Shown: piece after piece, positions 26,967 to 42,916 of the stretch | Layout of the letters: every line of letters starts with the position of its first letter | Position numbering within the stretch: position 1 is the stretch's first letter | Translations under genes and position numbers: made by a program | Assembly: GCA_008011715.2 (NCBI GenBank) | Contig: CP136508.1 | Span: 3,906,001-3,970,000, forward strand | DNA length: 64,000 nt | From: [Empedobacter] haloabium | GTDB lineage: Bacteria > Pseudomonadota > Gammaproteobacteria > Burkholderiales > Burkholderiaceae_D | Direction of reading: 5' to 3' | Notes under the pieces: model-generated | The model's input: only the letters and a program-made list of their open reading frames with translations | Database searches by the model: none | What the model was told of the DNA's origin: nothing

Positions 26967-26998
26967 TGCATACCTGCTGCCAGGCGCCGCACGCCCGC

Positions 26999-27436: not shown

Positions 27437-27624
27437 GCATGCCTCATCGCTGGTACATGGGGTCGATCGAGCGCCGGTGTCCCGCAATGGACAGCAATGC
27501 CGGCCAGCCGGTCCGGTGCCGGCACCTGCGCGCAACATCCGCTCGAGCCAGCCGCCATCATACACGCGGATGCGCGGCCACCCAAGCGGCCATGCGGGGC
27601 GAAACGCCGGCGCGCACGGCGCGC

Positions 27625-29856
27625 TCACTCGCCGTCCAGCACCCGCAGCGCGCGCGCCAGCACTTCGTCCCTGCCGGCGCGCAGTCCGACGAAGGTGGGC
27701 GACGCGGGCACGTGTGGCTGCAAGCCCACGCGCTGCAACTGCCGCCCGTCGGCATGCACGACTTCGAGACCGGAAAACGAGACGGTCACCTTGCCCGGCA
27801 GGACGACATGACGCAAGTCGCCGTCGGCACCGACGGTGGGGCTGCCGACGAACGTTACCGCGCTCGCCGCTTCCAGCAGCAAGGCGGTATGCTCGGCCTG
27901 GCTCATGGTGCGTTCATCGATCAGCACGACGACCTTGCCGTTGTAGCGCGGTCCAGGCCAATTGTCGACGCCCTGGCTGCGCTCGAGCCGCATGCGCCCA
28001 CCCCCGGCGACGCCGGTGACGAAGGTTTCGTACAGCCGCAACGCGCCAGCCGCGCCATGGGCCAGGCGCGGCGCGATCGACCACGCGGTCTGGCGCGGAT
28101 AGCCACGCAGGTCGAAGATGACGGCCCTGGTCGTACCGATCGTGTCGAACATCGACGCGACCTCCGAGCGCTCCAGCCGATCGAGATCGACATACCCGAC
28201 ATTGCCCGGCAAGATCCGCACGGCGTCGCCGGCCGGTCGCTGCGGCCGCTCGTCATCGATGCGCCGGCGCGGCAGGGCGAATTCCCTGACCGCCCCTTCG
28301 CGCGCCACCCGCAGCAGCGCGACCGAACCTTCCGGACCCGCGGTCAGCCACTCGAGCGCCGTGCGCAGGCCGCCGGCCGCGGTGGACGCCGAAACCTGGG
28401 GCAGCAGTTCGTCGAGCCGCTGACGTACGCCGACGCCGTCGATGGCCAGCAGCTCGTCGCCAGCCAGCAGACCGGCCGCGGCGGCAGGGTCGTCGGCGAA
28501 GCCGGTCACCGCGATGCGGCCCTCGACCTGCGCCAGCCGCACGCCGGGTTGTGCCCTGCCGCGCGCCGTGTCGAGGGCGCGGCTGAACACCCGCACATGG
28601 CTGTCGCCGGCGGCGGCCGCCATGCGCTGCAGCGCCAGGCCATAGGCGAGTTCCGTGTCGGCGGCCGCCATGCCTTTCAGGCAGCGCAGCAGCGCTTCAT
28701 CCCAATCGCCGGGGAACAGGCGGCGCGCCGGATGCGCCATGTCCAGCGCTGCCCATAATTCGATGGCGGCCGCCTGGCGCCACTGCGGCGGCGGCAGGCG
28801 CGGCCCGTCCCGGCCCTGCCGCACGACCGCTAGCGGCAGCCCGCCCGGCTGCGCCGCCGCCACCCGGCGCGAAGGACGCGACAGGGTCCGATAGGCCGCC
28901 CGCACGGCGGCGCTGCCGATGCCGCTCTCCGTCGCGGCCGGCACCGTGCCGTCGACCTTGCAGGGAACGAGACCGGCCGAGTCGACCAGGCTGCCGGCGC
29001 TGAACTCGACGCGCAACGCCCCCACGCGCAGCAGGCGTGACGGCCCGCACCGGCTGCGGCTGCCGGCGGGTGCCAGCAGTACTGCCTGGCCGCGCCGTTG
29101 CAGTGCCAGCGCCACCGCTGGCACTGCCGCCACATCGTCCACCAGGAAGGCGAGCGCTCGCCTGGCGGCGCCCGCCACCGGCACCAGGCGCGACGACTCC
29201 AGTGTCAGCAAGCCGCCGTGCAGCGCGGCGCCACCGCCGGTGCCCGCCAGCGGTCTTGTTCCGGCGGCGAACCGGTACTGCTCGGCGGGCAGCACGAGCG
29301 GGCCGTCGACGACGCGGGCGGCCATGGCGCTCAACGCATCGGCCGTTTCCCCCATGTCCCACGCCACGGCGCGCAGGTCGACAACGACGCGCCGCGCCGG
29401 ACCAAGCTGGTCGAGCGCGGCGCGCCACCGGGCCGGATCGGGCGCGCGCCCGGCGTGCAGGTGCAGCAGCGCGGTATCAGGCGCCAGCCATTCGATCAAG
29501 GGCGCCGCCGCCGGCCAGGGCACGAACGACACATCGCGCCGGGTCCACAGTCGCACACCCGGATCGTGCAGGGGAGCCATCAGCCGGCGCACGCCCTGCT
29601 CCAGTTGTGCCGGCGTGCTGGCATCGAGCAGTGCCGGCATGGCGTCGGCCAGCGCCGCATCCCAGGCCACCTCGCCACCCGCCAGCGCGGGGTGCAGCGA
29701 ACCGACGTCGCGCCACAACCTGGCGATGCCGAGCAACTCCTCGTCGGTCGGCGCGGCCGCGACCGGACCGCCGGCGCAGGACAGTGCGAGGCCGGCCATG
29801 GCTGCCAGCGCGCGGAGCCGGCCGGCCGGCGCACGCGCCTGGCGCCGCGCGCGCAT
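27625..29856 (-). CDS. Tandem S41-family peptidase, first unit degenerate
   Basis: 743 residues. The ATG at 29856 has GGGGGAG seven bases upstream and an arginine-rich signal peptide, so the protein is exported. Residues about 36-300 and 385-740 have the same layout: a helical start (ARLWRDVGSLHPALAGG / DMAHPARRLFPGDWDEALLR), then an S41 core. The second unit has a PDZ-like part (GLLAGDELLAIDGVGV) and the nucleophile-serine region IDERTMSQAEHT. The first unit reads VDDVAAVPAVALAL at that place and lacks the serine. One active and one pseudo-protease unit are thus fused. The gene follows the cupin gene by two bases at the end of the lanthipeptide operon, so a role in leader removal or clearance is plausible but unproven. 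Confidence 0.82.
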   Translation of the reverse strand: MRARRQARAPAGRLRALAAMAGLALSCAGGPVAAAPTDEELLGIARLWRDVGSLHPALAGGEVAWDAALADAMPALLDASTPAQLEQGVRRLMAPLHDPGVRLWTRRDVSFVPWPAAAPLIEWLAPDTALLHLHAGRAPDPARWRAALDQLGPARRVVVDLRAVAWDMGETADALSAMAARVVDGPLVLPAEQYRFAAGTRPLAGTGGGAALHGGLLTLESSRLVPVAGAARRALAFLVDDVAAVPAVALALQRRGQAVLLAPAGSRSRCGPSRLLRVGALRVEFSAGSLVDSAGLVPCKVDGTVPAATESGIGSAAVRAAYRTLSRPSRRVAAAQPGGLPLAVVRQGRDGPRLPPPQWRQAAAIELWAALDMAHPARRLFPGDWDEALLRCLKGMAAADTELAYGLALQRMAAAAGDSHVRVFSRALDTARGRAQPGVRLAQVEGRIAVTGFADDPAAAAGLLAGDELLAIDGVGVRQRLDELLPQVSASTAAGGLRTALEWLTAGPEGSVALLRVAREGAVREFALPRRRIDDERPQRPAGDAVRILPGNVGYVDLDRLERSEVASMFDTIGTTRAVIFDLRGYPRQTAWSIAPRLAHGAAGALRLYETFVTGVAGGGRMRLERSQGVDNWPGPRYNGKVVVLIDERTMSQAEHTALLLEAASAVTFVGSPTVGADGDLRHVVLPGKVTVSFSGLEVVHADGRQLQRVGLQPHVPASPTFVGLRAGRDEVLARALRVLDGE

Positions 29857-29857
29857 G

Positions 29858-31027
29858 CTATTGCTCCCCCAGCGCGAGCGACACGCATGCCGCGATATCG
29901 CGGCGCATCAGGTCGTCCAGTGCCAGGCGCAGTTCGCTTCTGCCGATGTCGCCGTGCGCCGCCCGCAATGCGTCGAAGCTCAACGGCTGCGCCGCCGCGG
30001 CCAGTGTGCGGATCAGCGCCGGCCCGTGCGGACTGGCGCCGACATGGGTCCCGTTCAATGTGCGCGCCGTGCGTGCCGCATCGGCACCGAAGCGCGAATT
30101 GATCGTATAGTGGCCGGCCTCGATATCGGCGCACAGGCTGGCGCGAAACTCGCGCGCCACATTGAACGGCGAGGCGACCCGTTCGACATCGACCTGGTGA
30201 CGCACGTATTGTGCGAAGCTGTCTTCGGAAAACAGCGCCGCGCAGAGCTCCTCGCGCGCTTGCGCGATCGTCTGCTGGCCAGTGCTGTCGTGCCGCACGG
30301 CCCGGCGGCACGACAGCTGTTGTGGCAGCAGATGCTTCACTGCCCACGTCACGTAGTCGGCCACGGTGTGGGGGTGCGTGCCGATGGCCACATGGAACGT
30401 CTCTTCCTGCAGCGGTATCGCGGTATGCCACCACCCGCGCGGGATGTACAGCACGTCGCCGGCGTGCAGGATCTCGTCGATGACGGGCTGCGGCGGACAT
30501 TCGTGCTTGTGGTGCAGGCTGGTCTGTCCGCTCAGCGGCAGCGGGAAGGTCGGTTCATACACAAGCCAGCGCTTGCGGCCGATCAGCTGCAGCGCGAATA
30601 CGTCGTGCGTGTCCCAGTGATTGCCGAACGTCTCCTTGTCGCCGAACGAGATGTAGCCGTTGGCCACCGCCGGGGCACCAGCGAATCGCGCCACCTGGTT
30701 GCACAGCGCGCGGATCGGTGGCGAGACGCCCTCGATCCGGTTGTAGATGATCGACGCGCCTTCCTCCAGCATCGCGCTCAACAGCGGCTTGATGATGCGA
30801 TGGCGGATCACGCCAAGCTCCACGCAGGTCTCGGTATAACGGGATTCGTCCACGAAGCCGTCCTTGTGCACCCGGATGTTGGCGTTGCTGGTCTCGCCCA
30901 CGTACAAGGCGCGATCGATCTCGCTCCAGTCGATCGCGCCCGCTGCCAGGGCGCCCCGGTGGATGAACGGTCGCTGCTCAAAATACTCGCTGAAAAACTG
31001 CTCTCTCGACAAGCCAAAATCCAACAC
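29858..31027 (-). CDS. JmjC/cupin_4-type Fe(II)/2OG oxygenase
   Basis: 389 residues from a GTG at 31027 with GAGGA eight bases upstream; upstream codons in this frame are a shadow of the exporter gene. It resembles the RoxA (YcfD) ribosomal-oxygenase family in length and layout. The iron triad is His137 and Asp139 in NHWDTHDVF and His201 in IPRGWWHT. A C-terminal winged-helix-like domain (LSFDALRAAHGDIG) follows. RoxA hydroxylates an arginine of ribosomal protein L16. This copy lies between a lanthipeptide exporter and a peptidase gene (38- and 2-base gaps), so peptide hydroxylation is the likelier role. That assignment is an inference. Confidence 0.85.
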   Translation of the reverse strand: MLDFGLSREQFFSEYFEQRPFIHRGALAAGAIDWSEIDRALYVGETSNANIRVHKDGFVDESRYTETCVELGVIRHRIIKPLLSAMLEEGASIIYNRIEGVSPPIRALCNQVARFAGAPAVANGYISFGDKETFGNHWDTHDVFALQLIGRKRWLVYEPTFPLPLSGQTSLHHKHECPPQPVIDEILHAGDVLYIPRGWWHTAIPLQEETFHVAIGTHPHTVADYVTWAVKHLLPQQLSCRRAVRHDSTGQQTIAQAREELCAALFSEDSFAQYVRHQVDVERVASPFNVAREFRASLCADIEAGHYTINSRFGADAARTARTLNGTHVGASPHGPALIRTLAAAAQPLSFDALRAAHGDIGRSELRLALDDLMRRDIAACVSLALGEQ

Positions 31028-31065
31028 GATATGTTTCCTCAAAGGTGATCCCGTGGCCAAGCGGC

Positions 31066-33192
31066 TCAGGCGGTCTGCATCTGCAGCGGGGTGAAAGACG
31101 AGACCACGGTGCCGCGATCGATCGTCAGAATCCGGTCGGCCGAAGCGATCGTCTCCGGCCGGTGGGCGATGATAATGCGGGTCATCTTCAGGGCCGCGAC
31201 GGCCTCGTTGACCTGCTTCTCGCGCAACACGTCGAGATGGCTGGTGGCTTCGTCCAGGAACAGGATGCGCGGCCGCTTGTAGAGCGCGCGCGCCAGCAGG
31301 ACACGTTGCTTCTGCCCGCCAGACAGCACAGTGCCCATGTCGCCGACCAGCGTATTGAAGCCCATCGGCATGGCCTTGATATCGTCCAGCACCGCCGCCA
31401 CGGCGGCGCACTGCTCCACCCAGTGCATGTCGACTTGCGCGTCGAAGAAACTGATGTTGTCGCGGATCGATCCGGCGAACAGCACGTCGTCCTGCAACAC
31501 GGTCCCGACCATCGCGCGAAACGCATCCATGCCGACCTGGCGCACATCGTGGCCGCCCACGGCAATGGTACCTTCCTGGGCCGGAACGATTCCCAGCATC
31601 ACGCTCATCAGCGTGGACTTGCCGCAGCCCGATGGTCCGACGATCGCCACGGATTCCCCCGCATCGATGTCCAGGTCGACGCCGTTCAGGACCCATGGCT
31701 CCTGCTCGCCGTAACGAAACTTGAGGCCCCGCACCCGCAGCGAGGGATCGAGCACGGTCTCGTGTTCGCTCACGCCTCCCGCGTCCTCGGGCTCCGTCAG
31801 CACGATGTCGCCCAGGCGCTCGCCCTGCAGCTGCAGCATGCGGAATTCCAGCAGCTTGTCGATCAGCGAACTGGACCGATCGATGAACTGTGCCTTATAG
31901 GCGAGGAAGGCGACCAGGATGCCGACGCTGAAAGCCCCGTCCATCACATACATCGCTCCCAGTGCCGTCAGGAACAGACCTTCCAGGCCGAAGCCGATAC
32001 CATTGACCACCCTGAAATACAGATTCAGTTTTTGTACGCGCAGGCCCGCATTGATCTCGTTGGTGACGAGCGACAGCCAGGATGCGCGCCGCTGGTCGTG
32101 TTTCGAAAACAGCTTGATCGCCTTGACCCCGCGAATGGTCTCGAGAAAGTGGGTATTCTGCTTGGCGGCGCTGATGATCTCCTTCTCGCTGGCGCTGCGA
32201 GTCGGATAGTACCAAGCCCAGCGAACCGCGCCATACAGGGCGACGGCGACGACGCACACCGCCGTCATCGCCGCGCTGTAGTACAGCATCAGGCCCAGCG
32301 TGATCAAGGCCATCAGGCCATCGAGCACCGCTTCCAGGAACGAGGTGGTGAGGGTACGCTGGATCTGGTCGGCGGCACCGAAGCGCGACACGACATCGCC
32401 CAGTGTGCGCTTTTCAAAGTACTGCAGGGGCAAGCGGACGAGATGAGTAAAGATGTTCGAGCGCCATTGCAGCCGGATCGACGTCGACATGTACATGATG
32501 ATCCACGAGCGCATCGTGCTGATGGCAACTTGCAGAACGAGCAGCAGGCCGAACCCCAGGGTCAGCAGATACAGCAACGGCTTGTCGTGCGACATCAGCA
32601 CATCATCGATAATCACCGTCATGAAATAGGGGCTGATGAGGGAAAAGACCTCGAGCGCCAATGCCAGCAGCAGGATCTGCACCGCGGAGCTGCCAAGTCC
32701 GTGCACCGAGCCGATCAGGTCGCGCATCCGCACGGCCGGCGCCGGCGGTTCACGACGGAACTGCGGATTCGGCCACAATTCCAGCGCGACCCCCGTGAAC
32801 GACTTGGACACCTCGGCCAGCGTCAGGCGGCGCTCGCCGAACGCCGGGTCGAGAACGGTCGCACCCTGGGCGCTAACGGAGGTCAACACGACGAAATGGT
32901 TGAAGTTCCAGTGCAGGATGCACGGCAGGCGCAGTTCCCCCAGGTCCTCCAGGTCGAGCCGCAGCGGCCGCGTGCCAAGGTCGACCTTGGTGGCGATCTG
33001 CACCAGGTGCGCCAGCGCCGCGCCCTTGAGCGATACCGAGAACCGGCTGCGCATTGCCGCCAGATCGACCTGGTTGCCATAATGGTTGAGTATCATGGTC
33101 AGGCAGGCCAGTCCGCACTCGGCCGCCTCGATCTGCAGCACCAGCGGCACCTTGGGAGATCGCCCGAAGTTCAATTTGTCAGTCAATACCAT
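31066..33192 (-). CDS. lanT: Peptidase-containing ABC exporter (C39 peptidase, LanT-like)
   Basis: 708 residues. The N-terminal C39 peptidase (1-130) has Gln20, the nucleophile Cys26 in AAECGLACL, His99 in HWNFNHFVVL and Asp115 in LDPAFG, so it is predicted active. A six-helix transmembrane domain follows (about 160-440), then an ATPase with Walker A GPSGCGKST, signature LSGGQKQRV and Walker B ILFLDEATSHLD. Such exporters cut leaders after a Gly-Gly motif while exporting the peptide. The precursor at 38895-39146 has that motif. The upstream HlyD gene (42-base gap) supplies the periplasmic adaptor; no TolC homologue is nearby. Confidence 0.95.
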   Translation of the reverse strand: MVLTDKLNFGRSPKVPLVLQIEAAECGLACLTMILNHYGNQVDLAAMRSRFSVSLKGAALAHLVQIATKVDLGTRPLRLDLEDLGELRLPCILHWNFNHFVVLTSVSAQGATVLDPAFGERRLTLAEVSKSFTGVALELWPNPQFRREPPAPAVRMRDLIGSVHGLGSSAVQILLLALALEVFSLISPYFMTVIIDDVLMSHDKPLLYLLTLGFGLLLVLQVAISTMRSWIIMYMSTSIRLQWRSNIFTHLVRLPLQYFEKRTLGDVVSRFGAADQIQRTLTTSFLEAVLDGLMALITLGLMLYYSAAMTAVCVVAVALYGAVRWAWYYPTRSASEKEIISAAKQNTHFLETIRGVKAIKLFSKHDQRRASWLSLVTNEINAGLRVQKLNLYFRVVNGIGFGLEGLFLTALGAMYVMDGAFSVGILVAFLAYKAQFIDRSSSLIDKLLEFRMLQLQGERLGDIVLTEPEDAGGVSEHETVLDPSLRVRGLKFRYGEQEPWVLNGVDLDIDAGESVAIVGPSGCGKSTLMSVMLGIVPAQEGTIAVGGHDVRQVGMDAFRAMVGTVLQDDVLFAGSIRDNISFFDAQVDMHWVEQCAAVAAVLDDIKAMPMGFNTLVGDMGTVLSGGQKQRVLLARALYKRPRILFLDEATSHLDVLREKQVNEAVAALKMTRIIIAHRPETIASADRILTIDRGTVVSSFTPLQMQTA

Positions 33193-33234
33193 CGTGCTTC
33201 CACATTCTTTCGCGTTGCCGGCGAGCGACGCATG

Positions 33235-34494
33235 CTAGCGGTCCGACCGGACCGCATTCAATTCGTAAAACGGTACGAACAACCACTGATACAGGCGGCG
33301 GGTTTCCGACAGAATATCGGCGTCCAGCAGCATCCCCGGCGGCAATGGCCGTTCGACTCCGGCGACGAGTATCGTCTGCCGTGCCAGTTCGACCACGATC
33401 TCGTACTGCGCGGCAGGCGGCTGTACGGTGCCGGCGTTCAGCGCGACCGTGACCGCGACCGGCGCGCGCGAGATCGAGACCACCCTGCCCTCGGCCAGCC
33501 CGAAGCGTTGATACGGGAATGCCTCGTAGCGCAGCTTGACCTGGTCGCCGACGGCGATAAACCCGATGGCCTTGCTGGGCGCATACAGGCGTGCCTGCAG
33601 CCGCGAGCCGGACGGCACGATGCTTGCCAGCGCCGTGCCTGCCGTCACGGTCTGGCCTGCCTCCACCGCGATCCCGGTCGCGACGCCAGCGCGCGGCGCG
33701 ACGATCACTTCGCGGCGCCGCAATTCGGCCGCGCTCCAGTCCTGCCGGTTCTGCGACAGCTGCCGGGTCAGCGCAGCCGCGTCGCTGGCATGGCGGGCCT
33801 GAAGATCGGCCAGCTCGTCCTGCTTTTCGTCGATGCCGCGCGACACAACCATGCGCTCCCGCTGCAGCGCGGTCAGCCGGCTCTTCTGGTCAAGCAGCTG
33901 CCCCTGCTTTTCCTTCAGCAGTTCGCCCGAAACATAGCCGGTGTTGAACAGCTCCTGGTAACGCGCGGCGGTCGCCGCCTCCAGCGTCAGGCGCCGGCCC
34001 TGGTCGACGATCTGCTCGTCCGCCCTTGCCAGTTCATCGCGCAACTTGCCGATGGCGCGCCCGATACGGCGCTCCTGGTCGCGCAGCACCTCCTGTTTCG
34101 TGGCCAGTTCCGCCTGCACGGAGTCGCGCCTCGCCGCGAGTTCGCGGCTGATCGCCATCTGCGTGTCGGCCTCGGTGCCGCTCTGGCGTTCGCCGGAGAT
34201 TGCGTACATCGCCTGGCCGGCCCGCACGGGCTCGCCTTCGGCAACGTAGCGCTTGACGACGATGCCGGCCTGGTTGGTGTAGACCTGGACCAGGCCCGCC
34301 GCCGGCACCAGCCTGCCGCTGACCGGCGTGCGGCGCGTGTATTCGCCGCATCCCAGCAGCAGCAACAGACCCGCCAGGACCGCCGCGGTCAGGCAGGACA
34401 CCAGTCGCGCCGAAGGCGGCTGGATGACGACGATATCGCCCAGCCAGTGCGGCTGGTTGGCTTCGATCGCTTCGCGCCGGAACAGCGAACTCAT
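33235..34494 (-). CDS. HlyD-family periplasmic adaptor of the peptide exporter
   Basis: 419 residues. The ATG at 34494 overlaps the LanB stop (ATGA). One membrane helix lies near residues 30-50 (SCLTAAVLAGLLLLLGC), followed by a biotinyl-lipoyl-like half (GLVQVYTNQAGIVVKRYVAEGEPVRAG), a long coiled coil (about 110-240) and the second lipoyl half (VIVAPRAGVATGIAVEAGQTV). This matches the adaptors of type I and bacteriocin exporters (MchE/CvaA type), which bridge the ABC protein to TolC. Its place between LanB and the C39 exporter supports that role. Confidence 0.92.
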   Translation of the reverse strand: MSSLFRREAIEANQPHWLGDIVVIQPPSARLVSCLTAAVLAGLLLLLGCGEYTRRTPVSGRLVPAAGLVQVYTNQAGIVVKRYVAEGEPVRAGQAMYAISGERQSGTEADTQMAISRELAARRDSVQAELATKQEVLRDQERRIGRAIGKLRDELARADEQIVDQGRRLTLEAATAARYQELFNTGYVSGELLKEKQGQLLDQKSRLTALQRERMVVSRGIDEKQDELADLQARHASDAAALTRQLSQNRQDWSAAELRRREVIVAPRAGVATGIAVEAGQTVTAGTALASIVPSGSRLQARLYAPSKAIGFIAVGDQVKLRYEAFPYQRFGLAEGRVVSISRAPVAVTVALNAGTVQPPAAQYEIVVELARQTILVAGVERPLPPGMLLDADILSETRRLYQWLFVPFYELNAVRSDR

Positions 34495-37400
34495 GCCGCA
34501 GCCGCCAGTGCGCCCCGCTCGCGGCCCAGGGCGGAACGGTACAGCCGTTCCAGCGCGTCGTAGACCAGCACTTCGTAGCCGCGCGGATGGTGACCGAACA
34601 GACGGATGCAGCACATGTGCAGGTGGCTTTGCAGGACCCGCTCGAATTGCGGGGTGTCGAGCTCACCTGGTCGTGCCGTCCGTGCCTGCGCGAACAGCGC
34701 GCGCCGCCGCGCGCGCAACGGGGCCGCTGCCGCGAACGCCGCGGCCCACCGGGGCGCCGGCGGCTTGTCGTCCAGCAGGTCGAACAGCGCGGCGCGTTGC
34801 ATGCGGAAATGACGTCCCAGCAGATCGCGCTGATAGCTGCCAAGTCCGAACTCGGCGCGATAACTCTCGGCCATATGCCGCGCGATGCGATGCCGCACGT
34901 CGGGCGCGCAGCCGAAGTCGGCGATCAGTGCGGCACACGACCACACGGCAGCTTGCCACCGCGCTTGCTCGCCCGCGGCACTGTGCGTCAGGAGCGCGAG
35001 AGCCAGCTCGCTGTCGATGCCGAACAGCCGTTCCGACAGCGGCAGCAAGGCCGCTCCGCCGTAGCGCGCCATTTCGCGCTGATACGGCGCGAACGCATAT
35101 TGTGCAATCCGTCCGGCCCGTTGCTGCGCGTCCAGGGCGAGGACGAATTGCGCCATCACATGGGCCAGCGCAGCCGGCGTTGCGACGAAGATGCGCAGGC
35201 GCAGGTGGTGTTCCGGGTCGGCGTAGCGGATAAAGAACCAGTCCTGCAAGGCCCCGTCGCGGCGCAGTGCCCGCAGCAAGGGAGCGCAATGCTCGACCAG
35301 GAAGTCATCGGTGTCCGCCACGGCAAGGTAGATCTTGACGAAGACGACTTCGCCCATCGGCGCGAGCGGCAGGTCGCGCACCGGCAGCGGCGGAGCCGCC
35401 ACCTGGGGAGCGACCTTGCTCGTGTGCGCGAACGGCAACAGCACCTCGTGCCGTACCGGATGGCGGCCTGACTGATGGCCGACGACCTCGCGCAGGACCA
35501 GCCGGCGCCGGCGCATCAGGATGCGGTAGAGCTGCTCCAGGTCGATCGGGTCGGTACGGTCGAGCAGCAGCGTATTGTCGAATTCCTTCAGTTCGACCAA
35601 CGCCGGGACACCCTGGCTGTCGAGGTGTGCGGAGAAGGCGGCCCGGCTTTGTTCCGCCGTGGCGCCCTTCGCGACCTTGTATTGGCGCGGTTCGATCAGC
35701 CAGCGCGCCGGCGCCAGCACGATATCGTCATATTCGATACGCGGCAGGAACGGGTACTCGACAAAGAAATTGCTCCACCCGAAGTGAGCGAAGTAGCGCG
35801 GGTACATCCCGATATTGCGCAGGAATGCATAGGCCTTGGTGCTGCTGCTGTGCTCGACATTATGTGCGCAGGTCATGTGCGGCATGATGCGCCGGTCCAG
35901 GCTGCGCGACCACAGCTGCATTTCGCCACCCACGACGGCGACATCGATGTCGCTCAGCCCGATTTCACTGTCGGATGGGCGCGCATCGGCCTCCACCAGG
36001 TTGATGCGATAGGGCCACAACGCCGGACGCGTCATGATATTGGCCATATGGCCGGCTGGGCGGTAGCAGATTTCGGCGTGGATCCAGTCCGGATTCTCGT
36101 CCTGCGTGGCGCGCGCCATCGCTTGCAATGCATCGGCCATCGCCGGCTGCGCGTAAGCGAAGCGGCCCGACCACGAGCTGACCCCGGAATTCGAAATGCC
36201 CTGCAGCCAGGTGCGCGGCGCGGCGCCGTCTCCGGTGGGCGGCAACACGGTCATGATGGCGAACAGCTGGGAGGGGAAGACCTTGCCGCGCGGGCGCAGG
36301 GCCCGCACTTCCTCCGCTGTGATCCGGATGACCTGTTCGCCGGCCGTGCCGTCCATCCGCAACAGCTTTCCGACGAGAAAGCGGTCGAACGGTCGCATCG
36401 GCCCAGCCGGGGATCGTTCGCCAGCGCCGACCGGACTGTCGATGCCGAATTTGCGCAGCATCTCGTGGTTATGACTGTGGTCGTCCGATCCGAACAGCAT
36501 GTCGTCTTCCAGCAGTTCGCTCAGCGGCACCCGGCTCTTGCCGTAGCGCCGCTCGAACTGCTGCGCCATGATGTCCAGCGACGTCTCGCGCTCGCTGAAG
36601 CGCGACACCAGCAGACCCAGCTCGTCGGTCACGTGATCACAGTAACCGCGGTCCAGGCGGAAGTCGGCATCGCGGAAGCTGTCCACGCGCAGGCATGTCT
36701 TCGCCGCGGTGGCGGGCAGAAGTGCCTGCAGCGTGGCGTCAAGCCGGCGGTAATCGTCCAGTTCGACATGTTCGGCACGGTTGAGCAGGTCCAGTTCCGC
36801 CAGCACGGCCAGCAGGGTGGCGCTGACATGGGCTTCGCCCGGTATCTCTCCCAGGGCCGTTGCCAGCGCCCGAGCCGGATCGTCCGCCAGCAGGTCCACG
36901 CCCAACGTGGGCAGCAACACGCGGGCGGCGACCAGGTCGTCGACCAGTGCGCGCGCCTGCTCCGGTGCGAGCTCCGGGCAGGCCTGCAGCAACCGTTGCG
37001 CCAGTTCAGGCGGCGTGCTTGCGGTCGTGGCGCTCAACGCCAGTACTTGCAGGATCGCGGGGTGGGCATCGATTTCAGCCAGCTGGTAATTGCGGCCGTT
37101 GGCCTGCGTCGCGACCCAGTCGGTATATTTCAGCTTGCCATGGGCGGCGTACACGGAGCGGTTGCCGAGATAACGCAGCGCCGATGCCCGCGCCGCGATC
37201 GCCCGGTCGCACAGCGCATGCAGGAACGCCGCGTCGATGCGCACGTGCCGGCGCCCGGAACCGTCGCCAGCGAAGCCTGCCACAGGCGTCGGCCCGGCCG
37301 CCGCCTCGACGCGCCCATGCGATACCGTGGCGAACATTCCGAACGGGGTGGCACGGAAGCACATGCGGTTCAAGTAGCGCTCGAACGCCAGCAGCACCTT

Positions 37401-37646
37401 GCGGCCGTTTTCCGAATCGGCATCCCAGCGACCTTCGCTCATGCGTGCATGCAGGTTGGCGCTGGCGAGGTAGATCGCTTCGCTGATGCGCGGCTGGCGG
37501 AACAGCTGCTGCGCCGCCGCTGCGCGCGCGGCCCAGCCCGGCCCCGCTGCGCGATACGCGGCCCAGGTTGCCGGCGCCAGGAATGGCGCGCGCAGGATAA
37601 AGAAATCTCCGTGGGAAAACCGTACTTCAGTAGTCATGTCGATCAT
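34491..37646 (-). CDS. lanB: Class I lanthipeptide dehydratase, full-length LanB
   Basis: 1051 residues, carrying both LanB domains. The N-terminal glutamylation domain has RATPFGMFA (98-106); the C-terminal elimination domain (SpaB_C type, about 770-1040) has DWFFIRYADPEHHLRLRIF and ends with RLFGHHPRGYEVLVYDALERL. In the family it uses glutamyl-tRNA to activate Ser and Thr of the precursor and then eliminates glutamate to give dehydroalanine and dehydrobutyrine. The start is uncertain: ATGs at 37646 and 37637 both lack a clear ribosome binding site. It lies 24 bases after lanC and overlaps the HlyD gene. Confidence 0.95.
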   Translation of the reverse strand: MIDMTTEVRFSHGDFFILRAPFLAPATWAAYRAAGPGWAARAAAAQQLFRQPRISEAIYLASANLHARMSEGRWDADSENGRKVLLAFERYLNRMCFRATPFGMFATVSHGRVEAAAGPTPVAGFAGDGSGRRHVRIDAAFLHALCDRAIAARASALRYLGNRSVYAAHGKLKYTDWVATQANGRNYQLAEIDAHPAILQVLALSATTASTPPELAQRLLQACPELAPEQARALVDDLVAARVLLPTLGVDLLADDPARALATALGEIPGEAHVSATLLAVLAELDLLNRAEHVELDDYRRLDATLQALLPATAAKTCLRVDSFRDADFRLDRGYCDHVTDELGLLVSRFSERETSLDIMAQQFERRYGKSRVPLSELLEDDMLFGSDDHSHNHEMLRKFGIDSPVGAGERSPAGPMRPFDRFLVGKLLRMDGTAGEQVIRITAEEVRALRPRGKVFPSQLFAIMTVLPPTGDGAAPRTWLQGISNSGVSSWSGRFAYAQPAMADALQAMARATQDENPDWIHAEICYRPAGHMANIMTRPALWPYRINLVEADARPSDSEIGLSDIDVAVVGGEMQLWSRSLDRRIMPHMTCAHNVEHSSSTKAYAFLRNIGMYPRYFAHFGWSNFFVEYPFLPRIEYDDIVLAPARWLIEPRQYKVAKGATAEQSRAAFSAHLDSQGVPALVELKEFDNTLLLDRTDPIDLEQLYRILMRRRRLVLREVVGHQSGRHPVRHEVLLPFAHTSKVAPQVAAPPLPVRDLPLAPMGEVVFVKIYLAVADTDDFLVEHCAPLLRALRRDGALQDWFFIRYADPEHHLRLRIFVATPAALAHVMAQFVLALDAQQRAGRIAQYAFAPYQREMARYGGAALLPLSERLFGIDSELALALLTHSAAGEQARWQAAVWSCAALIADFGCAPDVRHRIARHMAESYRAEFGLGSYQRDLLGRHFRMQRAALFDLLDDKPPAPRWAAAFAAAAPLRARRRALFAQARTARPGELDTPQFERVLQSHLHMCCIRLFGHHPRGYEVLVYDALERLYRSALGRERGALAAAA

Positions 37647-37670
37647 CGATTGAGTGCGCGTGGCGCTTGT

Positions 37671-38816
37671 TCAGAAACCCATGCAGAGGCAGACGTCCCA
37701 GTGGTGACGCCCGCGTGCCACGCCGTCCTGCAGCGCCAGCAGGACACCGCCACTGCCTTCCAGCAAACCGGTGTGGCCGGCAAGTGGTTGCGCGCCGTCG
37801 GCGATGGCAGCACGCCACGCCGCCATGCGCCGCAGATAGACGGGTTCGGCCCGCTCGCGCGCCATCTTGCCGACCAGATGCAGTACGCCTGCGTGCCCAT
37901 GGCACAGCGCGTGGTCGGCCAGCCCGAACGATTCGTCCGGCTGGGCCAGGCGCTCGGCCACGAGCACATGTGCCGTCTCGCCGAGCGCCGGGTCGGACAG
38001 CGCGGCGCCGGCGGCGTGCAGTGCGAAGCCAACGCTGAGGTCGCCATAGCACCAGGCAAGCCGGCTGCCGCCGCGCTGGCTGCTGTAGTAGGGATAGCAC
38101 GCGCCGTCCACCGGCTCCCCCCGCAGCGCGACCAGGGCGGCAGCTCCCTCGCGCAAGTAGCGGGTGGTGTCGCCGGTAGCGAGGCCGTGGCGCAAGGCGC
38201 CCGCGAGCAGCAGCACGACGCCGGGCAGGCCATGCGCCACACCCAGGTCGACATGGCCATGCTTACGTGATTCGGCCGGGGCGAGCGGTCCCAGGAAACG
38301 GCCTGCAGTGCGCCATACGCGGCCGGCGGCGGCGCTTTCGGATTGTTCGGCCAGCACCGACTCGACGGTGCGGTACAGTTCGCGGGCAGCGCCGCCGTCG
38401 CTGCGCATCAGCGCATACGTACCGATGCCGGCGAGGCCGGTGATGAGGTCGAAGCCCAGCGACGCGTCGCGCCGCGCGACGTACCCGGCGAGCAGCTCGT
38501 CTATGTCCGCCACGAAAGCGGCGACCGGGGACGGCAAGAGCGCGGGATCGACGGCGTGCGCGTATTCGAATGCATACAGAATTCCCACCAGCCCCGTCCA
38601 CAGCGTCACCGGCAAGTCGCGCGATTGGACCGCGGCCACCAGTACCTCGATCGTTTCGGCGATGCGCGCACGGCGCGCGGCGGTCGGCGCCAGGCCGTAC
38701 AGGTGTGCCTGCAGCAGCAGCGTCCCGGCCGCGCCGTTTGCCAACGATATTTCTTCCGGCCGGGCCAGCATGGCGTCGTGCTGTGCCTCTTCGGTATTCA
38801 GGTCTGCAGGGCTCAT
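37671..38816 (-). CDS. lanC: Lanthipeptide cyclase LanC
   Basis: 381 residues, the normal LanC length. The alpha-toroid repeats show glycine-rich signatures GFDLITGLAGIG, DLGVAHGLPGVV and HTGLLEGSGGVLL. The zinc ligands are Cys256 in AWCYGDLS and Cys305-His306 in ALCHGHAG; His195 in VAHGLPG fits the catalytic histidine. The enzyme adds cysteine thiols to dehydrated residues to form (methyl)lanthionine rings. It lies between the precursor gene and lanB. A hairpin just upstream (38856-38881) may lower its expression relative to the precursor. Confidence 0.95.
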   Translation of the reverse strand: MSPADLNTEEAQHDAMLARPEEISLANGAAGTLLLQAHLYGLAPTAARRARIAETIEVLVAAVQSRDLPVTLWTGLVGILYAFEYAHAVDPALLPSPVAAFVADIDELLAGYVARRDASLGFDLITGLAGIGTYALMRSDGGAARELYRTVESVLAEQSESAAAGRVWRTAGRFLGPLAPAESRKHGHVDLGVAHGLPGVVLLLAGALRHGLATGDTTRYLREGAAALVALRGEPVDGACYPYYSSQRGGSRLAWCYGDLSVGFALHAAGAALSDPALGETAHVLVAERLAQPDESFGLADHALCHGHAGVLHLVGKMARERAEPVYLRRMAAWRAAIADGAQPLAGHTGLLEGSGGVLLALQDGVARGRHHWDVCLCMGF

Positions 38817-38855
38817 TGCGTTGTCAACTTGGTTCTGCGGTGGTTCTCGAAAATT

Positions 38856-38881
38856 GCCGGATGCCGGCGCCAGCACCCGGC
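38856..38881 (-). terminator. Attenuator-like hairpin between precursor gene and lanC
   Basis: On the minus strand GCCGGGTGC pairs with GCATCCGGC (one G-T pair) around a GC-rich loop, followed by AATTTTC. It starts 13 bases after the precursor stop and ends about 40 bases before lanC. Partial terminators in this place are well known in lantibiotic operons and give more precursor than enzyme mRNA. The short T-run suggests read-through. Confidence 0.65.
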
Positions 38882-38894
38882 AGCTTGTTACCGA

Positions 38895-39146
38895 TCAGTC
38901 ACCCGAGTTCGGGCAGCAGACGCGGTTGGCCGTCGGCGGGCAATTCGTCGACCGCAGTGGACATTGCTCCGTCACGCAAGGGCAGTCCGACGGGATGGTG
39001 TTCGGCTTCGGGGGCGGCGGTGGCGGGTTCTTCGGCGCGCCGCCGTTCGGGTCCTCGTCGCCGTCTTCGCTTGCACCGCCCACCAGTTCAAGCTCGCTCA
39101 TCGAAAGCGTACGCAAGGTACGCTTGTGCAGTTCAATTTTTTCCAT
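38895..39146 (-). CDS. lanA: Lanthipeptide precursor with double-glycine leader and Pro/Cys-rich core
   Basis: 83 residues; AAGG lies six bases before the ATG. Residues 1-24 are the leader (TLRTLSMSELELVGG), resembling class I leaders with a C39 cut after Gly23-Gly24. A second Gly-Gly-Ala lies at 35-37. Residues 25-54 are acidic then proline-rich, with six consecutive prolines (41-46). The core has six cysteines (55, 57, 62, 69, 77, 78), four of them followed by proline, and Ser/Thr at 50, 53, 59, 66, 67, 72 and 81 as ring partners. Fifteen prolines in all make it a natural target for the nearby prolyl-hydroxylase-like enzyme. The identity as substrate of LanB/LanC is inferred from position and composition; the ring pattern cannot be predicted. 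Confidence 0.88.
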   Translation of the reverse strand: MEKIELHKRTLRTLSMSELELVGGASEDGDEDPNGGAPKNPPPPPPKPNTIPSDCPCVTEQCPLRSTNCPPTANRVCCPNSGD

Positions 39147-39296
39147 TGGATACCTTAAAAGGTCTTTTCAAAAAGCGAACCAGTGCAGGCCACTCATCGT
39201 TTCTTCGATTCTGGCTTCCGACGAGCGGAACGAGTCAAAGCTCCAACTGCAGCCCGACATGGTCCACCGTGTTGCCCAAAAAATAATGGGCTGCGC

Positions 39297-39422
39297 ATGC
39301 TAACAAACCCACGCCAGGAAGTAAATAAAATAATTACCGAAAGTCCAGGCATGGAAATTTGGGATTTATTCCAGTACTATAATGGCGCCTCCTGCCCCAT
39401 ACTAATCGAACCTTATTTATGA
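39297..39422 (+). CDS. Possible 41-residue peptide ORF coupled to the downstream oxygenase
   Basis: The frame runs from ATG 39297 to a TGA (39420-39422) that overlaps the ATG of the 2OG oxygenase gene. The peptide ends MEIWDLFQYYNGASCP then ILIEPYL. Against it: the codons ATA, TTA and CTA are rare in this genome, there is no clear ribosome binding site, and a TATAAT box lies inside it. It may simply be the AT-rich promoter region. Confidence 0.22.
   Translation: MLTNPRQEVNKIITESPGMEIWDLFQYYNGASCPILIEPYL
39378..39383 (+). promoter_or_regulatory. Consensus -10 box upstream of the 2OG oxygenase gene
   Basis: A perfect TATAAT lies 35 bases before the ATG at 39419, within an AT-rich stretch in an otherwise GC-rich region. 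The -35 region is weak (AAATTT or TTGGGA at unfavourable spacing). It is the most likely promoter of the plus-strand oxygenase gene, in the 272-base gap it shares with the divergent precursor gene. Confidence 0.4.
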
Positions 39423-40489
39423 AACGTGAAACGCCGGCCGCAGACCAAGCTATCCAGATTCTCGATGATATCGTTCCCCGCGAACTTTACCGTTCACTCG
39501 TCGAATCCTCTCTTACACTGGACTGGCAATTCGGCTGGAAAACCATGTCGAACCCGCATATGCGTTACTGGCATCACGAAGTCGGCTATGGAACGAAGGA
39601 AAACACGGAAGACTGCATGGCCCAGGTCAGCCGTCACCGGCTGGCGGTGTTCGGGCTGTACCAGACATGGCTGACGACGCACGTCTTCCCGGCCGGCACG
39701 CGCATCCTGCGCTTCTATCTGAACGGCCATACGTACGGCTCGGAAGGCTGGCCACATACCGACAGCGACCGCCCCGGCGAAGTGACCACGGTGCTGTATC
39801 TGAACGAACAATGGCAAGCCGGCTGGGGCGGCGAAACAGTCATCTACGATGCCGCCGGCGATATCGCCTGCGCCGCGCTGCCCCGCCCCAATCGCCTGGT
39901 GATCTTCCCCTCCGACCGACTGCACGGGCCGCGGCCGCTGTCGAAGGCGTTCGACGACTTGCGCGTCGTGCTGGTGGTGAAGGTGGCGCTGCCAGCGGCC
40001 GACGCGGCAGACGAGCACGAGCCGGACCCGGCCCTCGTGGCATTCCTGCGCGATGGCGGCTGCGCGGGCCTGGCGCATTCGGGACGGGATCTGCTGACTC
40101 ACCTCATCGGCACCTACCGGATCCTGCGCCGGCGCGGCGCGGCCGAGGCAGTCTGCCTTGCGGGTTTGTTCCACAGTATTTATGGGACGTCGATCATGCA
40201 CTGCACGCTTCCGCTCGAGCGCGCCGCGGTACGGGTGCGGATCGGCGAACATGCCGAGCGGCTGGCCTGGTTGTTCTGCATGATGGACCGGCCGCGCTGC
40301 TGGGCACTGCCAGCCACGGCAGTGCCGCTGCGCACCGGTGCGCGGGTCGTGGTCGCCGCCAACGACTGGCGCGATCTACGCCTGATCGAGGAAGCCAACC
40401 TGACTGAACAAGGCGTGCTGGACACCCGGCGCTGGGACGCACTGACCCACGCCCCGGACACGGCGGGGGCGCAGTCGGATCGGACTTGA
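39419..40489 (+). CDS. 2OG-Fe(II) oxygenase fused to a DUF6817 (HD-like) domain
   Basis: 356 residues. The N-terminal half (1-190) is a prolyl-hydroxylase/EGL9-like double-stranded beta-helix: His113 and Asp115 in GWPHTDSD, His169 in DRLHGPRP, and the 2OG-binding Arg182 in DDLRVVLVV. The C-terminal half (about 205-350) matches DUF6817, with HSGRDLLTHLIGTYRIL and LAGLFHSIYGTSI, whose histidines suggest a second metal site. It is the only plus-strand gene in the lanthipeptide region, divergent from the precursor gene and convergent with the MBL gene with a one-base gap. A tailoring oxygenase for the peptide is plausible; what the HD-like half does is not known. Confidence 0.85.
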   Translation: MKRETPAADQAIQILDDIVPRELYRSLVESSLTLDWQFGWKTMSNPHMRYWHHEVGYGTKENTEDCMAQVSRHRLAVFGLYQTWLTTHVFPAGTRILRFYLNGHTYGSEGWPHTDSDRPGEVTTVLYLNEQWQAGWGGETVIYDAAGDIACAALPRPNRLVIFPSDRLHGPRPLSKAFDDLRVVLVVKVALPAADAADEHEPDPALVAFLRDGGCAGLAHSGRDLLTHLIGTYRILRRRGAAEAVCLAGLFHSIYGTSIMHCTLPLERAAVRVRIGEHAERLAWLFCMMDRPRCWALPATAVPLRTGARVVVAANDWRDLRLIEEANLTEQGVLDTRRWDALTHAPDTAGAQSDRT

Positions 40490-40490
40490 T

Positions 40491-41894
40491 TTACGCGGCC
40501 GTGCCGTCGGCAATAACGGCTCGGCCGAACGGGACCGCACTGCCGATATTAATCTCGGCAATATCGCAATCCACTTGCATGGCGGCCAGGCAATCGCGCA
40601 ACTGGCTTATCAGGGCGGCCTGATTTTTCGACGGGTGGTTTATCTCACCCCACCAATCGGCATAGGGAATAAACCTCCTGCCGGCACATGCAGCAATTAA
40701 ATCGGCGACGCCCGACGGTCCTAATGTCAGGCATTCCGATTTCAGGTCCGCAAAATTCTCCGCGTCGGAATTTGTAAGGCATGCCCAATATGTTCCAGAC
40801 CCTGTAATATAGGTAGGCATCCTTGCATGAAACTCGGCCAGATTCGAAGCGACATGGTCGACGGGGCCGAATTGGCGCAAAACACGGGTCGCCACATCTT
40901 TCATATTACCAGCCACCTCATTGCCGGTATCGACGACAAACCAGCTGCGGTCCACCGGCGTTTCGATCAAATAGGTATTGCCGATATTGCGCAGACGCGG
41001 ATCGCGCATGCCTCCCCGCGAGCGCGGCTGTTCGCCGTAGAACGGCAGGGCCGTTACCGTCATGTCGCCCAGGCGGAGCGCGGTTTCCCACCAGCGGGCT
41101 TCGATGATCGTCGTGAAACCCATCGCGCGCAATGGCGCGACGAACGACGGCGTCAGGATATTGGTCTGCGCGACCCACGGCACCACGACCGGAATGTGGC
41201 GCGGGAAGAAGGCCAGCGACGACGGCTCGAAGTGGTCGCCATGGGAATGGGAGATGAGGATGGCCGAACAATGGCGCGCCGCCTGCAGCAGGGGCCAGTC
41301 GTCGGCGCCGCCGCCATAACCGATGGTATGCAACACGGGATCGATCAGCACCGATCGCCCGCCGTGCGCGTACAGCAGCGACGCGTGCTGCAGGCGGTGA
41401 ATGCCCGCCCCGACAACCGCAGCTGGCGCCCGCTCCTCGGTCGGGCTCAGGCAACCCGCCTGCTCCAGTGACGCGACCAATGCCGCCGACGGCGGCTCCG
41501 TGCGCTGGTCACCTGCCAACCACAATAATGTGTCCGCCGCGAGCCTGACCATGGCGGCGTCCGGCAGCGACAAGTAAAGCCGTTCGGCGTAGGCATTGTC
41601 GCGGCGCTCGTCGACCGACACCACGAGCGTATCGAGCGGCGGGTCCTCGGGAAACAGCCAGGCCGGCCGCGGCGCGAACGTGGCGGCGGGATCGCGCGCA
41701 TCGAACGTGAAGAAATGATCGAAACGGGGCAAGGTGGCGGCCGCCATGATTGCCGAACCGAAGTGTCCGGTCGCCACGGTACGGTCTGCAATAGCTTGCA
41801 CGATCACGCTCAAGGCGGCCTGGTCATCCGTGTGCGCCTGGTTGATCAGCCGGAACGCACAATGGGGCGCCAGCCGCTTGCGCTCAGTGCTCAT
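40491..41894 (-). CDS. Metallo-beta-lactamase-fold protein with extended N-terminus
   Basis: 467 residues. From about residue 155 it is an MBL-fold hydrolase with the metal motif HSHGDH (216-221) and later NTYLIETPVDRSWFVVDTGNE; it looks like the UlaG/NAPE-PLD branch. The first 150 residues are not typical of that fold: a segment (MVRLAADTLLWLAGDQRTEPP) vaguely recalls a PqqD-like winged helix, but I am not sure. Its start lies eleven bases inside the 3' end of the prolyl-hydroxylase-like gene, so the two are co-translated. A function beyond metal-dependent hydrolase or oxygenase cannot be given. Confidence 0.75.
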   Translation of the reverse strand: MSTERKRLAPHCAFRLINQAHTDDQAALSVIVQAIADRTVATGHFGSAIMAAATLPRFDHFFTFDARDPAATFAPRPAWLFPEDPPLDTLVVSVDERRDNAYAERLYLSLPDAAMVRLAADTLLWLAGDQRTEPPSAALVASLEQAGCLSPTEERAPAAVVGAGIHRLQHASLLYAHGGRSVLIDPVLHTIGYGGGADDWPLLQAARHCSAILISHSHGDHFEPSSLAFFPRHIPVVVPWVAQTNILTPSFVAPLRAMGFTTIIEARWWETALRLGDMTVTALPFYGEQPRSRGGMRDPRLRNIGNTYLIETPVDRSWFVVDTGNEVAGNMKDVATRVLRQFGPVDHVASNLAEFHARMPTYITGSGTYWACLTNSDAENFADLKSECLTLGPSGVADLIAACAGRRFIPYADWWGEINHPSKNQAALISQLRDCLAAMQVDCDIAEINIGSAVPFGRAVIADGTAA

Positions 41895-42819
41895 GCTTCG
41901 CTCGCGCTACCGGACCTTCACGGAACCACTTCGTCATGATCCATTTCTCGCCGCCGCGCACGGGATCGCCGCCGTGCAGGGTGCCGCTTTGCGCGCTGGG
42001 GATCGGGTAGGCAAAAAACAACGCGCTGCCCTTGCGTGGCATCACGCGCATGCCGAGGTTGGCGAAGTAGGTGGCACCGCCGGCTTCAGGCTGGCGCAGA
42101 TAGATGATCAGCGTCGCCAGGCGCTGGCCGCCGAACTTGAGCTCCTTGTCATAGTAGCGCGACTTCTTCATGAAGAAATCGTAGTGTGGCTCGAACTTGC
42201 CGTTTTCCCGGTAGCGCTGCACCTGCAGCGGTTCGCCCCACGCTTGCGGCCACGCCGTCAGCTCCTCGATGCGGCGCTCGACCACGGCCACGACCGGCGA
42301 ATCCGTCGTGGCCAGCCCCATCACGTCACAGTCGCGGACACTCTTGAGCAATACGCCCTCGACATGCCCGGCGTCGTAGACGGTGGCCTCTTCCAGGGAC
42401 GCCTGCGCCACCTGGCAAAGCTCGTCGCACTCCTCGTCGCTCAAGAAGCCATCCAAGAGGACCATGCGCGGCGTGCATTGTTCGAAGGCGATGGTCACGC
42501 GACGATCCGCCAGCTCGATCACCGTGCGCTCGCCGCTCGTGTCTATTTCCGGCAAGGCGGAGCCATCGGCCGTGCAACCTGGCGGCAGTCGGCAATCGTT
42601 GCCGCCGCAGTCCAGAACCGCCTCGACGATGCGCTGCGCGACATGCTGCGAGTAGCCGCTCTGCACCGCCAGCGCGATGACGATCTGGGAAAAATTCTTG
42701 CCGTCGGCATGCTGCCGTTCTACGTACTGCTGCAACTCTTGAAGATAATGCAATGCTACCCCGTTGGTGGACGCCTCGCCCTTACTGCAAATGCAGTGGC
42801 GAATGAGAGTGATACGCAT
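41884..42819 (-). CDS. Prolyl-4-hydroxylase-like 2OG-Fe(II) oxygenase
   Basis: 311 residues as drawn. The C-terminal half is a P4H-type catalytic domain: FLSDEECDEL start, iron ligands His212 and Asp214 in EPHYDFF, His282 in GTLHGGDP, and the 2OG-binding Lys292 in GGEKWIMTKW. The N-terminal ~110 residues form a helical part and a linker with cysteines. Such enzymes hydroxylate proline in peptides. The precursor 2.7 kb away carries 15 prolines, making it the obvious candidate substrate. The start is unsure: the ATG at 42819 has no ribosome binding site and lies inside an inverted repeat; a TTG at 42753 with GGGG five bases upstream is an alternative. It overlaps the MBL gene by eleven bases. 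Confidence 0.85.
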   Translation of the reverse strand: MRITLIRHCICSKGEASTNGVALHYLQELQQYVERQHADGKNFSQIVIALAVQSGYSQHVAQRIVEAVLDCGGNDCRLPPGCTADGSALPEIDTSGERTVIELADRRVTIAFEQCTPRMVLLDGFLSDEECDELCQVAQASLEEATVYDAGHVEGVLLKSVRDCDVMGLATTDSPVVAVVERRIEELTAWPQAWGEPLQVQRYRENGKFEPHYDFFMKKSRYYDKELKFGGQRLATLIIYLRQPEAGGATYFANLGMRVMPRKGSALFFAYPIPSAQSGTLHGGDPVRGGEKWIMTKWFREGPVARAKHEH

Positions 42820-42916
42820 TCATTAAATGAAATGCGACTGCGCAGCGGCGCACCCGGTGACCTCATCTGAACACGTGGAACCGACGGCATTATGCCAGAG
42901 CAAAATAGCAATAATT

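Follow-up and report, generated by a model that had tools for sequence, protein, structure and literature searches.

A predicted class I lanthipeptide gene cluster unusually rich in oxidative tailoring enzymes in a betaproteobacterium

Lanthipeptide synthesis genes and several oxygenase genes lie side by side in the genome of [Empedobacter] haloabium (a single contig of 6.48 Mb), which raises the question of whether the oxygenases belong to the lanthipeptide pathway. The locus under study comprises 10 genes at positions 27625-42819 of a 64,000-nucleotide stretch of that genome (the window; G000:C1:3906001-3970000). We consider it likely, on the basis of the sequence comparisons below, that these genes form a class I lanthipeptide cluster whose set of oxidative tailoring enzymes is unusually large, acting in the steps proposed in the last section. 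All ten genes (10/10) were found where the initial annotation had placed them. Seven form a run on the minus strand, in the order precursor, LanC, LanB, HlyD, C39-ABC, JmjC, and S41. Upstream of the precursor is a plus-strand gene for a 2-oxoglutarate (2OG) oxygenase fused to DUF6817, which is convergent with a gene for a metallo-beta-lactamase (MBL)-fold protein; a prolyl-4-hydroxylase (P4H)-like gene follows. The MBL and P4H-like genes, both on the minus strand, overlap by 11 bp. The features are as follows:

27625..29856, minus strand: S41-family peptidase, last gene of the run (Pfam S41 2.5e-11)
29858..31027, minus strand: JmjC_2 (PF08007) Fe(II)/2OG oxygenase, NO66/MINA-like (Pfam JmjC_2 5.5e-29)
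31066..33192, minus strand: C39 peptidase-ABC exporter (Peptidase_C39 1.5e-34, ABC_membrane, ABC_tran)
33235..34494, minus strand: HlyD-type adaptor (HlyD_3 4.5e-15, scanned as a longer frame); its ATG overlaps the LanB stop codon
34491..37646, minus strand: LanB, full-length class I dehydratase (Lant_dehydr_N 6e-101, Lant_dehydr_C 3e-54)
37671..38876, minus strand: LanC cyclase (LANC_like 1.3e-28)
38895..39146, minus strand: precursor, 83 amino acids (6 relatives and an alignment; two further copies in G320, a genome of another genus)
39419..40489, plus strand: fusion of a 2OG-Fe(II) oxygenase (prolyl-hydroxylase fold) with DUF6817 (DUF6817 9e-22, 2OG-FeII_Oxy_3 2.8e-11)
40491..41894, minus strand: MBL-fold, CmlA-like protein, predicted diiron oxygenase (Lactamase_B_2 7e-8; CmlA 4jo0 5.6e-14)
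41884..42819, minus strand: prolyl-4-hydroxylase-like 2OG oxygenase (2OG-FeII_Oxy_3 1.6e-15; P4H 5iax 3.2e-33)

The Pfam domains, together with the precursor relatives, bear out the initial identification of LanB, LanC, a C39 exporter, an HlyD adaptor, and a double-glycine precursor in a betaproteobacterium. The same is true, from Pfam domains, of the three 2OG/Fe(II)-type oxygenases (JmjC, 2OG-DUF6817, and P4H-like).

The lanthipeptide core and its precursor

LanB aligns to NisB (4wd9) at 1.5e-25, and its glutamylation and elimination domains are both present. By hand count on the alignment (D299, R464, and H961 left out), it retains NisB positions R83, R87, T89, R784, R786, E823, and R826, that is, the Arg/Thr residues at the glutamylation site as well as the RLR and ExxR at the elimination site; we take these positions to be catalytic. 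LanC aligns to NisC at 7.7e-9, with its Cys and Cys-His zinc motifs lining up. Judging by sequence, the LANTHIPEPTIDE core (LanB, LanC, and the precursor) is genuine, and the locus is a predicted class I lanthipeptide cluster.

The precursor consists of a leader (MEKIELHKRTLRTLSMSELELVGG), an acidic ASEDGDEDP segment, a Pro/Lys linker, and a Cys-Pro-rich C-terminal region. A protein search retrieved the query itself and 6 relatives (E 6e-17 to 3.5e-28). In all seven aligned precursors (7/7), five Cys, the residues E-D-G-D-E-D-P, and most of the leader (MEKIEL.KRTLRTL..SEL) do not vary; after DGDEDP, the window precursor has 6 Cys and 7 Ser/Thr. A family-model scan of the window precursor gave no match of note. 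Among the four members scanned, sub-threshold matches to the NCBIfam model lant_leader_L1a ('class I lanthipeptide', E 0.11) and to a Type-A lantibiotic model (E 0.19) were seen in the relative P0002 only. Since known family models miss it, the precursor is counted as a new family whose GG leader is class I-like.

The arrangement of the Cys residues bears on another reading of the core, in which LanB and LanC give dehydroamino acids or few rings, the Cys serve mainly in disulfides or metal binding, and the product is no typical lanthipeptide. Several Ser/Thr directly flank Cys in the precursors (SxC, CCPNS/T), an arrangement that is unusual for lanthionine rings, and Cys-Pro repeats are reminiscent of disulfide or metal-binding peptides. 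However, the zinc ligands of LanC are retained and LanC is kept beside LanB in G320, and we regard this reading as quite improbable.

The conserved seven-gene run

The intergenic gaps of the run are, in the order given above, 18, 24, -4, 42, 38, and 1 bp, and because of this tight same-strand spacing the seven genes are likely a single transcription unit. No promoter or terminator match was obtained in 38800-39500, and an Rfam scan of 26000-45000 returned tRNAs only.

LanB relatives (E 1e-10) were found in 12 of 392 family genomes and in 3 of 399 order genomes, the host's own genome being included in both counts. LanB neighborhoods were compared for nine of the 11 other family genomes with a LanB, G044 and G359 being excluded; the G009 and G362 stretches are 5-6 kb each. 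Among these nine, the same seven-gene order was found only in G320, with identities of 43% for LanC, 39% for LanB, 52% for HlyD, 68% for C39, 61% for JmjC, and, over most of its length, 39% for S41, and with the precursor present twice. The only JmjC match outside G320 was a weak one in G288 (23%, E 2e-9). As the complete run recurs in G320 with its order unchanged, JmjC and S41 are assigned, on the comparison of these two genomes, to the predicted core; the P4H-like, MBL, and 2OG-DUF6817 genes are assigned to the accessory part.

The JmjC gene starts, in our reading of the sequence, with a GTG at 31027 preceded by GAGGAA. The nearest solved structures are NO66 (1.7e-12) and MINA, and the HxD and distal His are retained. 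Plasmid homologs were matched in 165 records, three of which were viewed. On Moraxella catarrhalis pLQ510 (L082 39-5475) and on an Acinetobacter plasmid (L083 4736-9541), a JmjC-type cupin (38% and 29.5% identity, respectively) adjoins an HlyD protein and a peptidase-ABC exporter, and a small peptide whose leader is GG-like lies beside them. These loci thus have the JmjC, HlyD, C39-type exporter, and GG-like peptide in common with the window; they differ from it in that no LanB or LanC is annotated in the stretches viewed. The third homolog, on a Streptomyces plasmid, has no HlyD/C39-type exporter alongside it in the stretch viewed. JmjC and C39/HlyD may therefore be a module of its own, and the Moraxella and Acinetobacter loci possibly encode JmjC-modified double-glycine bacteriocins. 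Bacterial JmjC homologs have been described in contexts like those of ribosomally synthesized and post-translationally modified peptides (RiPPs) (PMC12710340). BipG, from biphenomycin biosynthesis, is described as a JmjC gamma-ornithine hydroxylase in a RiPP pathway (PMC12707348); it is a JmjC oxygenase acting in a RiPP context, as proposed for the window, but belongs to a different RiPP class.

The last gene of the run had been annotated as a tandem S41 peptidase, a description that we withdraw: a single Pfam S41 domain was found, with a sub-threshold PDZ-like region, and the two halves of the protein fail to align by BLASTP. Its N-terminus looks signal-like by eye. No RiPP genes are annotated beside the S41 homologs of Hymenobacter plasmids in the stretches viewed (3/3; 5 records matched), and the link of the peptidase to the cluster therefore comes from G320.

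The accessory oxygenases

The MBL-fold protein, when compared with all PDB sequences at E 1e-3, matched only CmlA (5.6e-14, three entries) and 8a90 (1.2e-4), a 'non-heme diiron monooxygenase'. A profile of four relatives gave 8.6e-22 for CmlA, 4.2e-16 for 8a90, 4.4e-8 for NAPE-PLD, and 6e-6 or worse for other MBL hydrolases. The HxHxDH motif (H216, H218, D220, H221), E288 (in LPFxGE), and D322 align with the CmlA ligands and are invariant across the four relatives; the Glu and Asp are presumably iron ligands in CmlA. MBL hydrolases usually have a His at the position of this Glu. The HxHxDH motif has been described for this enzyme family (PMC9248904).

These comparisons bear on whether the protein is instead an ordinary MBL-fold hydrolase, for example one for self-protection or maturation, with no oxygenase activity. 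Pfam and NCBIfam label it only as an MBL or metal-dependent hydrolase, its first ~150 residues fail to align to CmlA, and its single-sequence structure model was unusable (pLDDT 38.8), all of which would suit a hydrolase. Against this stand the exclusive PDB matches to CmlA and 8a90, the profile ranking of these two at least 8 orders of magnitude above NAPE-PLD, with the other hydrolases further behind, and the retention of the CmlA Glu where hydrolases have His; in addition, three of the six plasmid relatives described below are the MBL gene of chloramphenicol-type clusters. We therefore think a hydrolase unlikely. The initial label of MBL-fold protein stands as far as the fold goes (the Lactamase_B_2 match), but the protein is closest to CmlA and 8a90 with the iron ligands retained. 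No condensation, adenylation, or carrier domains were found by Pfam in the ten proteins scanned, and since carrier-protein machinery is lacking among the ten genes, we call the protein CmlA-like rather than a member of the CmlA group. By these sequence criteria it is probably the fourth iron oxygenase of the cluster, and the initial total of three, correct for the 2OG/Fe(II)-type enzymes, would be too low by one.

Plasmid relatives of the MBL protein were found in 6 of 72,556 records, all of them in natural-product loci (3 chloramphenicol-type, 1 nonribosomal peptide synthetase (NRPS), and 2 lanthipeptide synthetase). In the three Rhodococcus records, the relative occurs with an AMP-binding protein, pabB, a chorismate mutase, and a chloramphenicol efflux gene, and in Burkholderia arboris its neighbors are a cupin, a thioesterase, and condensation-adenylation-carrier modules. 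On a Streptomyces sp. ADI95-16 plasmid (L055 9387-20782), it directly precedes LanC, with LanB, GrrM, and a 'thiopeptide-type bacteriocin biosynthesis protein' nearby; in our reading, two neighboring proteins without a Pfam match are possible 2OG oxygenases. On Pseudanabaena galeata pPg_03 (L056 754-15603), a LanM/Nif11-precursor locus contains the MBL relative, a JmjC_2 protein, two 2OG-Fe(II) oxygenases, and another MBL-like protein, which is more distant and lacks the Glu ligand. This oxygenase kit is much like the window's, though paired with a different class of synthetase. As the Pseudanabaena precursor is devoid of Cys, its product may fall outside the strict lanthipeptide sense. Searches with the Pseudanabaena and Streptomyces proteins gave weaker matches, including an Agrobacterium locus without such genes and a Janthinobacterium NRPS/polyketide synthase (PKS) locus. 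In the latter (J. lividum p356839, L085 4239-7958), two TauD/TfdA dioxygenases flank an MBL protein (30% to the Streptomyces one), and the surrounding NRPS/PKS cluster includes diaminopropionate genes.

The P4H-like protein matches the bacterial P4H 5iax with its HxD...H motif retained; its start may lie ~22 codons downstream (the database copy, P0008, has 289 amino acids). For the 2OG-DUF6817 protein, fold-search matches span residues 1-195 only, which leaves the DUF6817 part without one. The P4H homolog search gave 226 matches, of which the best 120 were listed, and statements on 2OG-DUF6817 homologs likewise refer to the matches listed. As the database search reports the longest contig per match, co-location was read from contigs of equal size. 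The precursor P0003, the P4H homolog P0009 (62%), and the 2OG-DUF6817 homolog P0130 (63%) are each on one 14,112-bp contig from the same two sources, and the precursor P0002 and the P4H homolog P0011 (60%) are each on one 16,133-bp contig, both from Undibacterium rugosum (now Cognatundibacterium). We infer from these sizes that a precursor relative shares the 14,112-bp contig with P4H and 2OG-DUF6817 homologs and the 16,133-bp contig with a P4H homolog. In a tree of 55 of the 226 P4H matches, a clade of 8 (support 100/99) holds the window's own protein and both contig-linked members.

Several observations weigh against a role of the accessory enzymes in the pathway, and would fit the alternative that the seven-gene run, with its JmjC enzyme, is alone the lanthipeptide pathway and that the P4H-like, MBL, and 2OG-DUF6817 proteins are neighbors acting elsewhere. 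These three genes had no match in any of the nine LanB neighborhoods (0/9), some of them short, and none of the three lies in the 34-kb stretch of G320 that holds the seven genes. At E 1e-10, the MBL gene was found in the host's own genome only, among 373 family genomes (1/373). The three accessory genes are in transcription units separate from the run, with the 2OG-DUF6817 gene on the opposite strand. P4H homologs (45-52%) occur without other window genes in all three other family genomes that have one (3/3, E 1e-50; one homolog has an internal stop, and a generic ABC ATPase match was set aside). On Paraburkholderia and Caballeronia plasmids viewed, 2OG and DUF6817 genes (38-39%) adjoin type IV pilus genes. 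Contig sharing, moreover, is read from equal sizes. Among the matches listed, the longest contig of P0004 (15,747 bp, of nine) appears in neither oxygenase list and no 2OG-DUF6817 homolog is on a 16,133-bp contig. Two homologs on long contigs have no precursor on an equal-sized contig among the precursor matches: P0012, of the P4H clade above (Pseudoduganella sp. R-32, 6.87-Mb contig), and P0132, 59% to the 2OG-DUF6817 protein (Duganella violaceipulchra, 575-kb contig).

A pathway confined to the run is nevertheless the less favored reading, and in our judgment an unlikely one: the equal-sized contigs would place a precursor with P4H and 2OG-DUF6817 homologs in an independent record and a precursor with a P4H homolog in U. 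rugosum, and the MBL family recurs alongside lanthipeptide synthetases. Conservation of the oxygenases apart from lanthipeptide genes, which the initial annotation had named as telling against its own reading, was observed for stand-alone P4H homologs and for 2OG/DUF6817 pairs by pilus genes, but not for the 60-63% homologs on equal-sized precursor contigs nor for JmjC and S41 in the G320 operon.

On the plasmids with pilus genes (L074/L075, ~5970-7140), two separate genes, one next to the other, encode the 2OG oxygenase and DUF6817. TcpQ, CAP, and PilV/type IV pilus genes adjoin them, and the two are possibly a pilus-linked hydroxylase pair. A Polaromonas plasmid with 2OG/DUF6817 homologs has no RiPP genes.

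The proline content of the precursors was considered separately. After DGDEDP, there are 14 Pro in the window precursor, 8 in that of U. rugosum, 12 in that of the 14,112-bp contig, and 5-10 in the remaining six sequences; two of the Cys-Pro prolines are missing from one of the G320 precursors. The prediction of a proline-rich product is weakened by this, the Pro run being specific to the window precursor and not cleanly tracking P4H. A proline-rich core as a P4H signature was rejected as a general rule, the run not being conserved across precursors.

Distribution, proposed pathway and known systems

The precursor profile matched only the host's own genome within its class (274 genomes) and within its genus (74 genomes). 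In the genus of G320 it matched one of 40 genomes, in two copies, and in that of G288 none of 43. A search of genome contigs for related loci gave one distant Ktedonobacter LanB (27%), and plasmid LanB matches numbered 62 records, every one below 60% identity. This rare and patchy distribution fits horizontal spread of the predicted cluster. A rhodanese gene next to the cluster (42917-43843) has homologs in 8 of the 12 genus genomes, the host's own included; the 19 other window proteins tried had no match at E 1e-10 in the rhodanese stretches of the other seven, meaning that the homologs are not syntenic and give no empty site. Beyond the rhodanese gene, ~1 kb from the cluster edge, a group of five tRNA genes at 43865-44454 (Gly, Cys, Gly, Gly, Gly) is a plausible integration site. 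A second gene with a partial Lant_dehydr_N match (3e-17) is present elsewhere in the host genome (G000:C1:223703-225547; L031 9287-11758), and the 19.5 kb around it gave no precursor, JmjC, P4H, CmlA-like, or 2OG-DUF6817 match.

In the pathway that we propose, LanB would dehydrate Ser/Thr in the Cys-Pro-rich C-terminal region of the precursor and LanC would close thioether rings, reactions assigned because of homology and retained active-site residues. Hydroxylation of the peptide would fall to the JmjC enzyme of the run, and the P4H-like, 2OG-DUF6817, and CmlA-like diiron enzymes would add more hydroxyl groups. The P4H-like and 2OG-DUF6817 enzymes likely act on Pro, and the CmlA-like enzyme may hydroxylate the beta-carbon of a core residue. 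The C39 exporter would cleave after the GG-type leader and export the peptide with HlyD, and the S41 peptidase, given its signal-like N-terminus, would probably trim the conserved acidic ASEDGDEDP outside the cytoplasm. The hydroxylations, their sites and order, and the biological role are all put forward conditionally; most likely, the cluster would yield a secreted peptide with an antagonistic or signaling role. A four-oxygenase pathway of this kind would be directly testable.

No earlier report of a lanthipeptide cluster with this enzyme mix was found in the open-licence literature, although a prior description may exist; nor was one found there of a lanthipeptide with an MBL fold, or of a class I lanthipeptide with proteobacteria and 2-oxoglutarate. 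Term searches of PMC9576775 and PMC11002830 gave nothing on such clusters. The survey PMC7268733 lists alpha-ketoglutarate oxygenases (PF03171), P450s, and radical SAM enzymes in lanthipeptide clusters, and its section 8 does not name JmjC, P4H, or CmlA-like enzymes.

The predicted cluster can be compared with several known systems. It has LanB/LanC chemistry, a C39 exporter, and a leader of the K-x-L-x-K...L...EL..V.GG kind in common with the pinensin-type class I lanthipeptides of Bacteroidota, the likeness of the leaders being partly our assumption. It differs from them in its precursor family, its betaproteobacterial host, and the addition of a JmjC, two P4H-type, and one CmlA-like oxygenase. 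Its LanB is also full-length, whereas that of pinensin is described as split (PMC7268733). Hydroxylated lanthipeptides, including hydroxylated Pro, are represented by duramycin, modified by the 2OG hydroxylase DurX, and NAI-107, whose Pro is modified by a P450; neither is presented, in the account given in PMC10373908, with a JmjC, P4H-type, or CmlA-like enzyme. If the pathway is as proposed, the lanthipeptide toolkit would gain further peptide oxygenases. The JmjC-HlyD-C39 pairing, seen in double-glycine loci both with and without lanthipeptide genes, also suggests that JmjC enzymes may modify exported peptides of the bacteriocin type more widely than has been realized.

CmlA is described as the sole characterized member of its group before FrsH, and as hydroxylating residues tethered to NRPS carrier domains (PMC7794379); no peptide-acting CmlA in a RiPP pathway was found in the open-licence sources covered. 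A tentative generalization, to which we give somewhat less than even chances, is that CmlA-like diiron oxygenases recurrently tailor the peptides of lanthionine synthetases (LanB/LanC here and in Streptomyces, LanM in the cyanobacterium), act on the peptide chain, and here work on the same peptide as a JmjC enzyme and two enzymes of the prolyl-hydroxylase type. With CmlA and its relative FrsH, the window protein has in common the MBL fold, the HxHxDH motif, and the Glu and Asp ligands; it differs from CmlA in its unaligned N-terminus and in the lack of an NRPS or carrier protein in the ten genes, such that its substrate would be a ribosomal peptide. If so, MBL-fold diiron hydroxylation would extend from NRPS carrier-bound substrates to ribosomal peptides.

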